In this document: one piece after another, positions 24,721-43,834 of the stretch
Position numbering within the stretch: the first letter of the stretch is position 1
How the letters are laid out: every line of letters begins with the position of its first letter
Source: an uncultured Eubacterium sp.
GTDB lineage: Bacteria > Bacillota > Clostridia > Lachnospirales > Lachnospiraceae
NCBI GenBank assembly: GCA_945946665.1
Contig: CAMEWO010000001.1
Span: forward strand, 186,001 to 250,000
Reading direction: 5' to 3'
DNA: 64,000 nt
Notes under the pieces: model-generated
Databases searched by the model: none
What the model saw: only the letters and a program-made list of their open reading frames with translations
What the model was told of the DNA's origin: nothing
Program-made: the position numbers and the translations under genes

Positions 24721-25170
24721 ATGGAAATTGAACGTAAATTTCTTGTTTCATCACTGCCGGAAAATCTGCAGTCATACCCTTGCAGGGTTATTGAGCAGGG
24801 ATATCTGTGTACCAATCCTGTTGTCAGGGTAAGAAAAGATAATGACAGTTTCTATCTGACCTACAAAGGAAAAGGAATGATGGCAAGGGAGGAATATAAC
24901 CTGCCCCTTACTGAAGAAGCATACTCCCATCTTATTGGGAAAGCTGATGGAAATATTATTACCAAACACAGATATGAAATTCCTGATGGCAATGGTTACA
25001 CTATTGAACTGGATATATTTGACGGAGTATTTTCAGGTACTGTACTGGCAGAAGTAGAATTTGCCAGCGTTGAAGATGCCAATAATTATATTTTACCAGA
25101 CTGGTTTTCAGAAGATGTGACTAATAACAAAGATTATCACAACAGCAATATGAGTAAGAAAAGGATTTGA
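24721..25170 (+). CDS. CYTH-domain phosphohydrolase (triphosphate tunnel family)
   Basis: A 149-residue CYTH protein. It starts with the hallmark MEIERKFLV (ExExK), then has PVVRVRKDNDSFYLTYKGKG, EEYNLPL, KHRYEIP, YTIELDIFDG and LAEVEFAS, the charged strand residues that line the tunnel and bind triphosphate and metal. Relatives hydrolyse inorganic triphosphate or thiamine triphosphate. I chose the ATG at 24721 (GGAGACGTAT upstream). It overlaps the expected ribosome site of the ClC gene, so the two are probably one transcript. Confidence 0.9.
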   Translation: MEIERKFLVSSLPENLQSYPCRVIEQGYLCTNPVVRVRKDNDSFYLTYKGKGMMAREEYNLPLTEEAYSHLIGKADGNIITKHRYEIPDGNGYTIELDIFDGVFSGTVLAEVEFASVEDANNYILPDWFSEDVTNNKDYHNSNMSKKRI

Positions 25171-25175
25171 CAACA

Positions 25176-26450
25176 ATGAAATCAATTTTTTCCAGTGACA
25201 GTTTCAAAGTAACAAAACAGCGTTTAGAAATGGCCATTCTTGTATTTTTAAAATGGGTTGCCATATCTGTTATCATTGGCGTTGCAACAGGACTTATCGG
25301 TTCGTTGTTCGGGCTTGGACTTTCCTTTGTAACTAACTTAAGAACCAGCCATTCATGGCTGTTATTTCTTCTGCCTGCAGCAGGTTTAATTATTGTATTC
25401 ATTTACAACATAACAGGCAGCAGCAATAACAAGGGAACTAATCTTGTCATCACCGCAATCCAGTCCAATGAAGAGGTTCCGGGAAAGGTTGCGCCTTTAA
25501 TCATAATATCTACTCTTCTCACCCATCTGTGTGGTGGTTCTGCGGGAAGAGAAGGTGCTGCACTTCAGATTGGAGGTTCTGTAGGAAATGAACTGGCGAA
25601 GTTTTTCGCGCTGGATGAAAAGGACACAAGAATTTTAATAATGTGTGGAATGAGTGGCTGTTTTGCAGCACTTTTCGGCACACCAATTGCTGCCACAATC
25701 TTTTCCATGGAAGTAATCAGTGTGGGAATAATGTACTATGCTGCTCTGGTTCCATGTACTCTTTCTGCAATTATTGGTGCCGGAATATCATCTTTATTCC
25801 ATCTTCATTCAGCCCATTATGATATTGGAATTCTTCCTGCATTTACAATATCTACTGTAGTTAAGCTTATGGTTATCTCCATGATATTTGCACTTGCAAG
25901 TATAGTATTCTGTATTGTACTCCATAAGACATCAGCTCTTTTCAACAAGCATTTTCCTGTTCCATATATCAGGATTATATTTGCAGCTATATTTATAATT
26001 GCACTGAGGTTTTTAACAGGAACTGATGCTTATCTTGGTGCAGGAACAGAAATAATTGACCAGAGCTTTGTAACGCAAAGTGTATGGTGGGCATGTATTT
26101 TAAAGATTTTATTCACAGCCATTACTCTGGGTGGAGGATTCAAGGGCGGAGAGATTGTACCAACTCTTTTTATTGGAGCAACTCTTGGCAGCTTCTTAGG
26201 CCCTGTATTTGGTCTTCCTGTAGGCTTATGTGCAGCCTGTGGAATGGTTACTGTATTCTGTGGAGTAACTAACTGCCCTGTAACATCTCTTATTCTGTCA
26301 ATAGAAATGTTTGGCGGGGAAAGCATTAAATTCTGTATGGTATGTATTGCTATAGGGTATCTTCTTTCTGGATATTACAGTCTGTATAACAGCCAGAAGA
26401 TTATGTACTCAAAATATAAGACGGAGTATGTCAATAAAAATACACATTAG
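25176..26450 (+). CDS. ClC-family chloride channel or H+/anion antiporter
   Basis: A 424-residue integral membrane protein with about ten or more helices. ClC selectivity-filter segments are visible: GGSAGREGAALQIGGSVGN (GKEGP-type), and GGGFKGGEIVPTLFIGATLG (the GxFxP-type loop). No C-terminal CBS domain is present. I chose the ATG at 25176; a TTG at 25167 overlaps the CYTH stop. The gluE-type glutamate occurs in GREGA. Transporters with this short form exchange Cl- or F- for H+. Which ion is carried is not decided. The gene ends next to the palindrome region and faces the substrate-binding lipoprotein gene. Confidence 0.93.
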   Translation: MKSIFSSDSFKVTKQRLEMAILVFLKWVAISVIIGVATGLIGSLFGLGLSFVTNLRTSHSWLLFLLPAAGLIIVFIYNITGSSNNKGTNLVITAIQSNEEVPGKVAPLIIISTLLTHLCGGSAGREGAALQIGGSVGNELAKFFALDEKDTRILIMCGMSGCFAALFGTPIAATIFSMEVISVGIMYYAALVPCTLSAIIGAGISSLFHLHSAHYDIGILPAFTISTVVKLMVISMIFALASIVFCIVLHKTSALFNKHFPVPYIRIIFAAIFIIALRFLTGTDAYLGAGTEIIDQSFVTQSVWWACILKILFTAITLGGGFKGGEIVPTLFIGATLGSFLGPVFGLPVGLCAACGMVTVFCGVTNCPVTSLILSIEMFGGESIKFCMVCIAIGYLLSGYYSLYNSQKIMYSKYKTEYVNKNTH

Positions 26451-26810
26451 GTGTTGGTGGCATACGTAAATATAGGGATTAGGCTTTACAGCAGCGGACT
26501 GTGGACTCCCCTGCCCAGTGGCTTCATGGCTGTATTCAGTGTATAAAAAACACGAAGAGAATCTAAGTGTTGCGGCATATATGAATTACACTCGCTTATT
26601 TCAGCAACTGCCCTTCAACTCGCCCCTTTGGGGGCTCAGACAATCGGGCGGTTGCTGGCGAAGTGTAATCCATACATACCGCAGCACTAAGATTTCTTCT
26701 AAACGTTTTTTATACACTGAATACAGCCACGAAGCCACTGGGCGGTAGAGTCCACAGTCCGCTGCTGTATAGCCTAATCCCTATATTTACTCACACTCCA
26801 CCACCAAGGT
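26451..26810. repeat. Long imperfect palindrome 1 (~340-360 bp)
   Basis: Nearly the whole stretch folds on itself. GTAAATATAGGGATTAGGC from 26466 pairs with the complement ending at 26790. GCAGCGGACTGTGGACTC, AGTGGCTTC-TGGCTGTATTCA and TGTATAAAAAAC all recur inverted on the right. Weaker pairing (TTGGTGG with CCACCAA, 26454-26460/26801-26807) extends outward. The apex is CGCCCC-TTTG-GGGGC, centred at about 26628. The inner part is the same core as in palindrome 2, but inverted. Apparent ORFs inside (such as 26518-26748) are by-products of the palindrome. It could fold in RNA from either strand and act as a bidirectional transcription barrier. Confidence 0.93.
26552..26702 (-). repeat. Shared hairpin core, copy 1 (inverted orientation)
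   Basis: A ~150-bp core with two different arms around CGCCCC-TTTG-GGGGC. The left arm (26552-26626) carries GAAGAGAATCTAAGTGTTGC and ACACTCGCTTATTTCAGCAA. The right arm (26631-26702) carries GTAATCCATACATACC and GCACTAAGATTTCTTCT. Read on the minus strand it matches the core at 27022-27172, including which arm has the extra CTTATTT bulge. Confidence 0.88.
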
Positions 26811-26887
26811 ATGTACAGGAATAAATAAAAACAGGACTTAGAACTTTCAGAATCTGGGGCACCAACTGCACAGATTATGGCAGTTTT

Positions 26888-27080
26888 GACTGTACCCTTA
26901 TATATAAAAAGGTCACATTAGAAGAAATCTTAGCGCTGCGGCATGTATGGATTACACTTCGCCAGCAATTGCACGGATTATGGAAGCTTGGACTGTACCC
27001 TTATATATAAAAAGGTCACATTAGAAGAAATCTTAGCGCTGCGGCATGTATGGATTACACTTCGCCAACAACTGCACGAA
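26888..27080 (+). repeat. Left-arm direct repeats (period 103 bp, two copies)
   Basis: Copy 1 starts GACTGTACCCTTATATATAA at 26888, and copy 2 has the same start at 26991. Over about 85 bp they are almost identical, including AGAAGAAATCTTAGCGCTGC and GGCATGTATGGATTACACTT. They differ mainly near the end (CAGCAATTGCACGGATT versus AACAACTGCACGAATG). There is no spacer variation of the kind seen in CRISPR arrays. Confidence 0.92.
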
Positions 27081-27172
27081 TGTCTGAGCCCCGGTCAGGG
27101 GCGAGTTGTCGGGCAGTTGTTGAAATAAGCGAGTGTAAGCCATATATGTCGCAACGCTTAGATTCTCTTCGT
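27022..27172 (+). repeat. Shared hairpin core, copy 2
   Basis: Left arm (27022-27092) with TTAGAAGAAATCTTAGCGCT and GGATTACACTTCGCCAACAA, apex GCCCC-GGTCA-GGGGC, right arm (27098-27172) with CAGTTGTTGAAATAAGCGAG and CGCAACGCTTAGATTCTCTTC. The right arm has about seven extra bases (AAATAAG) that would bulge. The same asymmetry occurs in copy 1. Confidence 0.9.
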
Positions 27173-27329
27173 CGTGACCTTTTTATATATAAGGGTACAG
27201 TCCAAGCTGCCATAATCCGTGCAGTTGCTGAAATAAGCGAGTGTAAGCCATATATGCCGCAACGCTTAGATTCTCTTCGTCGTGACCTTTTTGTATATAA
27301 GGGTATAGCCAAGCCACCATAATCCGTGC
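27114..27329 (+). repeat. Right-arm direct repeats (period 108 bp, two copies)
   Basis: CAGTTG(T/C)TGAAATAAGCGAG begins at 27114 and again at 27222. Both copies run through GTGTAAGCCATATATG and TTAGATTCTCTTCGTCGTGA to TATATAAGGGTA(C/T)AG. The two right units are almost identical to each other, yet consistently different from the complement of the left units. The arms therefore duplicated as units. Confidence 0.92.
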
Positions 27330-27386
27330 AGTTGGTGCCCCAGATACTGAAAACTCCAAGTCCTATCTTTTTATTTTTTACGTTTC

Positions 27387-28472
27387 CTACATACCATAAA
27401 AGTCATCTGATGGCATGCTGCCACCGACTGACTGTGGATTCTGGCTGTATAATACAGAAAGATATGAGGAAATCTTTGCTTTGGCCTGGCTTCCTGTAAC
27501 AAATGTAATGTTGCAGAATGGGATGGCCTGCTTTGCCACTGAAGCTTTAAATATTCCGAATTCTTCCACCAGCTGTGCGGCATCATCCACATTAGAATTA
27601 ACATATTCTACTGACTGGCTGTACTCTTTCATAAACATATCAATGGCATTTTTATTGTTATTGTAATAATCTGAATTAACTGCAATAACTCCTGTTACTA
27701 CAGTACTTCCGTCATTATTCAGCTTCTCCCACTCCTTTGTCACATCAAGGACAATACGAATACTGTCTGACGTATTCATCACTGTTGTCACGTATGGCTG
27801 TGGAAGCATTGATACTGCTCCTTTTCCTTTGGAAGCCATAACTGTGGCAACCTCTGCTGCTTCGGATTTGAACTCAATAGTAACATCTTTATCAGGGTCT
27901 AATCCAGCTTTTGTAAGAAGATATCTTAACGTATACTCAGGTGTTGTACCCTTACCTGTAGTGTATATTGTCTTTCCTTTCAGGTCAGTGACAGAACGGA
28001 TACTCTCACCATTCTCAAGAATATACAATACTCCCAGAGTATTTATTCCCAACACCTTAATCTTACCATTGCTTTTGTTATACAGTGTTGATGCAGCGTT
28101 ACATGGAAGTGCTGCTATCTGGATATCTCCCTTGATTAATAAGGATGTAAATTCGTCAGCCGAAGCAGCTATGGTAAAATCATAGTTATTAGTAGTGCTT
28201 CCTTCTTTAGAATCTTTCATCAGCTTAACCATTCCGATGGCTGTTGGGCCTTTCATTGCTGCTATTTTCATGTCGGCAGGTACATATGTGGAAGTACTCT
28301 CTTCTGTGACAGCTGTTGTTTTAACATTGTCATTATTAATAGCACTGTTGCTGCTGTCAGCTGTCTTGGCACCACATCCTGCAAGGCTGGCAGCAAAAAT
28401 CACTATAGAAGCTGTCAAAGCAGCTGTCATTTTTCCTTTTAATATTTTTTCTTTTAATGATATTCCTCTCAT
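27387..28472 (-). CDS. ABC transporter substrate-binding lipoprotein (NMT1/SsuA-like)
   Basis: A 361-residue lipoprotein: basic N-terminus, hydrophobic segment and lipobox LAGC (about residues 29-32), a Ser/Thr/Asn-rich linker, then a type-2 periplasmic-binding fold like NMT1/SsuA/TauA proteins (TAIGMVKLMKDS, SLLIKGDIQIAALPCNAA, VTDLKGKTIYTTGKGTTPEYTLRYLLTKAGL). GGAGG lies 5 bases before the chosen ATG at 28472. No permease or ATPase genes are beside it. The permease/ATPase pair at 11.5-12.9 kb is of the matching family and lacks a binding protein, so the two parts probably form one importer. The ligand is not identifiable. Confidence 0.9.
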   Translation of the reverse strand: MRGISLKEKILKGKMTAALTASIVIFAASLAGCGAKTADSSNSAINNDNVKTTAVTEESTSTYVPADMKIAAMKGPTAIGMVKLMKDSKEGSTTNNYDFTIAASADEFTSLLIKGDIQIAALPCNAASTLYNKSNGKIKVLGINTLGVLYILENGESIRSVTDLKGKTIYTTGKGTTPEYTLRYLLTKAGLDPDKDVTIEFKSEAAEVATVMASKGKGAVSMLPQPYVTTVMNTSDSIRIVLDVTKEWEKLNNDGSTVVTGVIAVNSDYYNNNKNAIDMFMKEYSQSVEYVNSNVDDAAQLVEEFGIFKASVAKQAIPFCNITFVTGSQAKAKISSYLSVLYSQNPQSVGGSMPSDDFYGM

Positions 28473-28579
28473 ATTTTCCTCCATTCTGCAGACGCTTTAG
28501 CATCGAGAAATTAATTAATTGTAATTGAACATATTCGATTTCGCAAAGGAACAGCCAGGAACTTTTGCTACAGTTCGAA

Positions 28580-43734: not shown

Positions 43735-43834
43735 TAGCAGCGGGATGCGAACCATGTACCGCAAGAAAATCTTTTCGTCCGGATGACAACTCCCTGTTCA
43801 CCTGGCACTTAACGCACACAGTCCTACTCTGCAT
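43735..43834 (-). promoter_or_regulatory. Tetrahydrofolate (THF) riboswitch controlling folT
   Basis: On the minus strand from 43832: GCAGAGTAG, then GTGTGCGTTAAGTGCC, AGGGAGTTGTC, CGGACGAAA, TTGCGGTACATGG and TTCGCATCCCGCTGC, ending at about 43735. These blocks and their order are the conserved core of the THF riboswitch class, with closing GCAG/CTGC helix P1. Downstream, AACCTC (43710-43715) is complementary to the folT ribosome site (GAGGTT), and CTACATA/TATGTAG can form a competing hairpin. Folate binding therefore most likely blocks translation initiation. Confidence 0.93.

Follow-up and report, generated by a model that had tools for sequence, protein, structure and literature searches.

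ERIC is an intergenic unit of about 100-170 bp, and ERIC, IRU and RU units belong to enterobacteria, where they are flanked by unrelated DNA. In the attC sites of integrons, the polarity of the folded single-strand hairpin is set by extrahelical bases; the base of the hairpin is conserved and its tip is variable. Published work describes REPs as 20-40 bp long and GTAG- or CGTC-tagged (PMC3733652), RU-1 to RU-3 as small mobile sequences between genes (PMC2759123), and quasipalindrome correction as changing several bases on both arms at once (PMC8794818). Here we describe two much larger palindromes in a 64,000-nucleotide stretch of DNA (the window) from an uncultured Eubacterium sp. What is conserved in them is an asymmetric hairpin core; at its tip, a GC stem closes an internal loop that reads AACTC on one strand and TCARACA on the opposite strand.

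Two palindromes between convergent genes

The window belongs to a genome of 2.45 Mb, hereafter G000; its sister species is G011. Palindromes 1 and 2 occupy the gap between the 3' ends of convergent genes for a chloride channel (ClC) and a substrate-binding protein. This gap is 936 bp here and 8-121 bp in the 7 of 21 congeners for which one retrieved locus spanned both genes (G005, G006, G007, G010, G013, G014 and G021). The features are as follows.

25167..26450, + strand: flanking gene, voltage-gated chloride channel family (Voltage_CLC)
26466..26551, + strand: left outer arm of palindrome 1, beginning just past the ClC stop codon (26450)
26552..26702, + strand: core copy 1, the asymmetric hairpin unit
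26617..26642, + strand: apical motif of copy 1, AACTCGCCCC-loop-GGGGCTCAGACA (G000:C1:212617-212642)
26705..26790, + strand: right outer arm of palindrome 1, pairing with 26466-26551 at 94% complementarity
26820..27377, no strand: palindrome 2, with outermost arms 26820-26880 and 27317-27377, 84% complementary
26860..27065, - strand: tandem-duplicated arm unit on the left of palindrome 2 (26860-26962 and 26963-27065, 94% identical)
27021..27172, - strand: core copy 2
27081..27107, - strand: apical motif of copy 2 (G000:C1:213081-213107)
27110..27308, - strand: counterpart tandem duplication on the right of palindrome 2 (27110-27200 and 27218-27308, 95% identical)
27387..28484, - strand: flanking convergent gene, ABC-type substrate-binding protein (NMT1 / Phosphonate-bd)

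The initial annotation had described a hairpin core occurring twice, in opposite orientations, as the heart of two giant palindromes, and this description was borne out. The copies at 26552-26702 (+) and 27021/27022-27172 (-) are 89% identical and lie in opposite orientation; both have the CCCC-loop-GGGG apex, and both show the same difference between left and right arms, CTCGCTTATTTCAGC versus GCTGGCGAAG, an asymmetry also seen in the 39 copies of the alignment described below. Each copy is the centre of a much larger palindrome (26466-26790 and 26820-27377). The outer arms of palindrome 1 measure 86 bp each, and in a search of the own genome the sole match of the left one, except at its core-side edge, was its own partner arm. 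Each side of palindrome 2 carries the same tandem duplication of the inner arm, an arrangement difficult to explain unless one arm copied the other. Folded as single-stranded DNA, palindromes 1 and 2 have z-scores of -23.5 and -33.1, respectively, with none of 100 dinucleotide shuffles of each being as stable.

Simple ORF calling puts ORFs inside the palindromes: those at 27050-27322 (+), 27055-27312 (-) and 26518-26748 (+), of 76-90 amino acids, lie entirely within them. The 90-residue ORF had no Pfam match, and these palindrome-internal ORFs are likely false genes. Elsewhere in the window, at 43736-43833 (-), a THF riboswitch aptamer scored far over threshold.

A dispersed core with a conserved tip

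In G000 the 151-bp asymmetric core occupies 31 sites, with no fewer than 41 complete or almost complete copies besides partial ones; the count is a minimum because 40 of 44 candidate regions were scored. Complementary arms extend beyond the core in all 41 copies (31-236 bp, median 92 bp, median identity 0.90) and reach at least 40 bp in 37 of them, so that whole palindromes around cores span 213-625 bp. In 23 of the 41 copies, the arm segment tested on one side, 12-80 bp away from the core, had no match at another site among the own-genome loci compared, about 330 kb plus two loci. The proposal of a dispersed repeat with different flanks is thus upheld, and the one-off rearrangement that the initial annotation had envisaged for a sequence lacking other copies in its genome or relatives does not apply. 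Closely spaced pairs in G000 are arranged + then - in 10 of 10 cases.

Long palindromes away from cores numbered only two in 330 kb of G000, the finder having returned 44 palindromes for 41 cores, with some counted twice. One of the two, L074 6305-6481, is a core-deleted site. The other, L067 7875-8004 on contig C7, is a core-less palindrome with arms of ~57 bp and a short loop, lying between two co-directional genes; it is perhaps a remnant, or another kind of palindrome. Applied to 1.05 Mb of G011, the same finder gave 7 palindromes, of which six adjoin a core and the seventh falls in a tRNA region (tRNAs named by eye); it gave no palindrome of comparable size in one mononucleotide-shuffled 341-kb control made from sister-species DNA.

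We aligned 39 of the 41 copies (alignment A1; L059_10701 and L068_10444 left out) and predicted the structure from that same alignment. Standard pairs occupy 96.5% of its pair cells, and both-side changes were seen in 22 of 45 pairs, against a mean of 8.3 in shuffles. Nearly fixed in A1 are the unpaired left-strand CGCTTATTTC and the tip, AACTC...TCARACA. A second alignment, A2, holds distant copies: 27 loci picked by eye for a similar base yielded 24 copies, of which 22 were aligned (a copy containing N and the second copy from one locus were omitted). Here 91.3% of cells are paired, and the covariation score is 0.70, compared with 0.09-0.17 for slid structures and 0.17 for shuffled ones. Cells changed on both sides number 98 and those changed on one side 3; the number of pair types (31) is not above that of shuffles (29.0; 141 of 500). 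The invariance of the tip in this distant set is partly built in, because the set was drawn with a fixed tip sequence. The conserved bulged hairpin proposed as the selected unit is recovered with covariation in both alignments. Covariation alone would label this palindrome family an RNA.

Relatives also occur beyond the genus, in other Lachnospiraceae and in other phyla. A search of 200 genomes sampled from the family with model R1, under strict filters and with 15 candidates scored per genome, identified copies in six further genera (best E-values from 3e-13 to 0.004). We take the sampled family, f1, to be Lachnospiraceae because contig C16 of one of its genomes, G347, shares sequence with Butyrivibrio hungatei NK4A153. 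The tip pattern was found in 15 of 392 genomes of an order sample (own genome included; a reversed-pattern control gave one match), in 9 of 299 genomes of a phylum sample and in at least 120 stretches of a database scan. Organism names cover 80 of these stretches; among the matches listed are Acidithiobacillus, Zoogloea, Denitromonas, Thiobacillus, Geobacter, Desulfobacterales, Nitrospirae, Bacteroidetes, Butyrivibrio and [Clostridium] fimetarium. An automatic filter for arms starting at most 40 nt from the tip was passed by 44 of 145 tip matches from the scan and viral loci together, many of the failures being palindromic by eye and left uncounted; no viral locus among the matches listed passed it. 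A locus filed as viral (L475, IMG/VR 3300028327_000735) carries three tip motifs, near 1887, 2146 and 7040, with short matching stems adjoining.

With model R2, built from the 22 aligned copies of A2 (all outside the genus, one from a rumen Bacillota MAG, and all chosen by their tip), 40 of the 41 copies in G000 are matched at E < 1 and 35 at E <= 0.05; two matches are partial, L068:5083 was missed, and there was one extra match at E = 0.52. This supports the view that distant and local copies form one family, with the tip-based choice being a caution.

The short gap in congeners bears on a different explanation, namely that bidirectional terminators grew here by template switching alone, without dispersal of a core. 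By eye, the same convergent site (8-121 bp in the 7 congeners) holds at most one small hairpin, and an arm at L060 holds a terminator-like hairpin with a T run together with an inverted copy. We consider this explanation quite improbable: one homologous core occurs at 31 sites and the tip is common across phyla, and local growth alone cannot account for such a family. Arm growth from local sequence could nevertheless be right as part of the explanation.

A non-autonomous transposon of REP/REPIN type, moved by a Y1 (RAYT) transposase, would fit the dispersed extragenic palindromes and their patchy distribution. It would also fit their frequent pairing in inverted orientation: across three sets, 15 of 18 multi-copy sites have the order + then -, and the order - then + does not occur. 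The transposase domain PF01797 is matched in 10 of 16 carriers examined and unmatched in the other six (G000, G011, G134, G526, G529 and G166, the G011 assembly being only 77% complete), and the palindromes are far larger than REPs. We rejected the Y1 transposase as the driver and find this origin most improbable.

SbcCD cuts hairpins, and loss of SbcD was considered as a condition for carrying the element. A match to SbcD (TIGR00619) over cut-off is missing in G000, G011, G134, G236, G280 and G347 and present in the other 10 of the 16 carriers; of 22 genomes regarded as lacking the element, 10 have no such match either. No overall association was found, and this candidate was rejected. Since SbcCD cuts hairpins, an absence of SbcD from G000 and G011, the latter only 77% complete, could help palindromes persist there.

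A cargo gene was likewise rejected: Pfam assigned the ORFs tested between or beside paired copies, 10 in all, to enoyl-CoA hydratase (2), RuvA, RNase_T exonuclease, DUF2971, PGA_cap and peptidase M16, and gave no family for the remaining three. The 10 genes beside G000 copies belong to ordinary families or none, and no trans-acting gene for spread was found among these candidates. As for carriage by plasmids or phages, also rejected, the window core had no match in plasmid and phage collections, and one Acidithiobacillus and one Zoogloea copy had none in the plasmid collection.

Core flips and swaps, gene context and the level of arm pairing

By BLAST, the core was found in one of 21 congeners, the sister species G011, which is 95% identical to G000 in DNA over one matched stretch. 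At comparable sites the palindromes are common to both species and their contents shift: cores are flipped and swapped, both arms have changed together at two sites, and short-repeat junctions mark sites without a core. For 10 cores at orthologous sites, identity between the species is 98.8-99.4% in three and 83% in one, whose counterpart is its best match; the other six are closer to cores elsewhere. Core orientation is reversed between the species at L071 and L083 and, once contig strand is considered by hand, seemingly at L094; at L083 the outermost arms are common to both species and the inner arms differ.

Arms were compared at four sites, L071, L066, L061_8574 and C9 (L061_4836 was left out, its G011 arm running off the contig). 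At L071, 18 columns differ between the species yet agree between the arms within each, and 15 differ in one arm only. The corresponding numbers at L066 are 35 and 10, the change there being a single replaced block and not scattered changes. L061_8574 is nearly unchanged (1 one-arm column, none concerted), and C9 has 11 one-arm columns and none concerted. Of 15 G011 loci retrieved with the core, 8 lie within 350 bp of a contig end. At L071 (4880-4910 and 5240-5260), the inverted repeat seems to extend into the 3'-terminal codons of a MATE-like gene and into the stop codon of a TrpB-like gene (both named by eye), as though the end of one gene were a copy of the end of the other; the C-termini of congeners are too divergent to show the direction of copying.

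At three sites (L074:6402, C9:34033 and C1:387086) the core is present in G011 and absent in G000. The junctions in G000 coincide with direct repeats of 4-5 bp (GCGT, TCTAA and CGCC) and arm remnants persist, which is why we read these sites as losses. The sister-species comparisons gave no clean new insertion or target duplication, only shared palindromes, with losses. Of the proposed insertion in either orientation, the two orientations are confirmed, whereas recent insertion is not, the core-minus sites resembling deletions.

Many copies lie ~60-310 bp from a gene's stop codon. For single copies between co-directional genes, with gene calls made as simple ORF picks, the ratio of sense to antisense is 5:1, 11:6 and 19:11 in three sets; under looser gene calls, a first count made largely outside G000 came to 15:12. 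Divergent single sites number 4 and 13 in two sets, and antisense contexts also occur. Orientation is thus only partly free: both orientations exist, yet multi-copy sites show a strong + then - order and single copies lean ~2:1 with the gene. This lean is compatible with strand, gene or replication mattering and does not settle which. The tip strand also tends to be the G-rich strand by local GC skew (21:10, 18:6 and 57:31 in the three sets), an agreement that may be a consequence of gene direction.

The three-set counts above and the mismatch counts below rest on a strict tip pattern (32 of the 41 G000 copies), with duplicates removed across three sets: G000, other Lachnospiraceae and a scan set of many phyla that includes some Lachnospiraceae. 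Sites scored as "unclear" or "within ORF" were left out (3 and 1, 12 and 2, and 42 and 23, respectively).

The initial annotation offered a structured RNA module as one possibility. Such an RNA would reside in mRNA 3' ends as a terminator, processing or protein-binding element, with a protein reading the tip loop; the fixed unpaired tip, the strong stem covariation, the distance from stop codons and the sense bias all agree with it. A selected transcript fold would tolerate G-U and not A-C mismatches. For arm positions beyond 70 nt from the tip, G-U and A-C counts are 49/51 in G000, 88/47 in other Lachnospiraceae and 36/33 in the scan set; over all positions they are 92/152 (weighted by some fixed core mismatches), 145/98 and 93/113. 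A control of 24 tRNAs gave 21/2, leaning slightly to G-U by picking the best acceptor register. There is thus little G-U excess over A-C, unlike in tRNA stems, and arm pairing is probably maintained at the DNA level; the moderate excess in other Lachnospiraceae, which favours the RNA, leaves room for some RNA role there.

Antisense and divergent sites likewise speak against an RNA, as does the near lack of one-side intermediates in A2, which suits template switching as described in PMC8794818. Rfam 15 gave no relevant family, the window passing a gathering threshold only at the THF riboswitch elsewhere. E-value scans of 26440-27400 and six related loci returned sub-threshold matches to other families only, such as one to group-II-D1D4-5 (E = 0.035) that adjoins the element in L231. 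The RNA module is weakened by the near symmetry of outer-arm mismatches in two of three sets, and we regard it as unlikely.

Proposed history and comparison with known systems

We interpret the two palindromes of the window, with a probability of about 0.6, as members of a cross-phylum family of dispersed extragenic DNA palindromes whose arms are rewritten by template switching and whose cores are exchanged by conversion. Template switching within a strand as the DNA replicates is the most likely process by which the arms, often site-specific, would be kept complementary and rewritten. The flips and swaps may come from inversion across the arms and from non-allelic conversion between cores, and cores may be lost through deletion between the short direct repeats seen at the junctions. 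The fixation of both asymmetry and tip across phyla suggests a putative hairpin-recognising protein, which would bind the folded single strand and would once have spread the element. At gene ends the palindrome occupies the position of a terminator and may act as one.

A variant that we hold to be doubtful starts from an element with nothing but the recognised tip, a folded single strand that would insert at a site, or insert anew where a palindrome already stands. The 3' end of this strand would copy the neighbouring host strand, yielding a palindrome of the site's own gene-end sequence, and both arms would later be rewritten together.

If the cross-phylum family is real, a widespread kind of palindromic DNA has so far had no name, and the position of such palindromes at contig ends may be part of the reason. 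The family would also show, in nature, how template switching couples the evolution of two arms along hundreds of base pairs, and its invariant tip would be a concrete bait for a putative hairpin-binding protein. The initial annotation knew of no named family, and we also found none: Rfam holds no relevant family, and an open-licence library of papers, searched with motif strings and topics and judged by title and start of abstract, yielded no description of this element.

The REP/BIME/REPIN sequences with RAYT (TnpA-REP) share with this family dispersed extragenic palindromes, inverted pairs and, on the REP side, DNA hairpins recognised by a protein. Inverted pairs are thus common to both, and the 20-40-bp tagged palindrome and a consistent Y1 transposase are not: here 150-bp cores lie within 213-625-bp palindromes with a conserved tip and often site-specific arms, six carriers have no Y1 transposase match, and no GTAG or CGTC tag was noticed by eye in the core alignment. 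ERIC/IRU, RU and MITE-like enterobacterial units are alike in being small mobile intergenic sequences of about 100-170 bp; in contrast to ERIC/IRU/RU, the tip described here is found in several phyla, and the two flanks repeat each other in inverted orientation. Template-switch hairpins show similar both-arm changes, there as a general mutation process and here tied to one dispersed family. The likeness to attC lies in the asymmetric hairpin of a folded strand, but the order of conservation is reversed, with the tip conserved and the base variable in the present palindromes.
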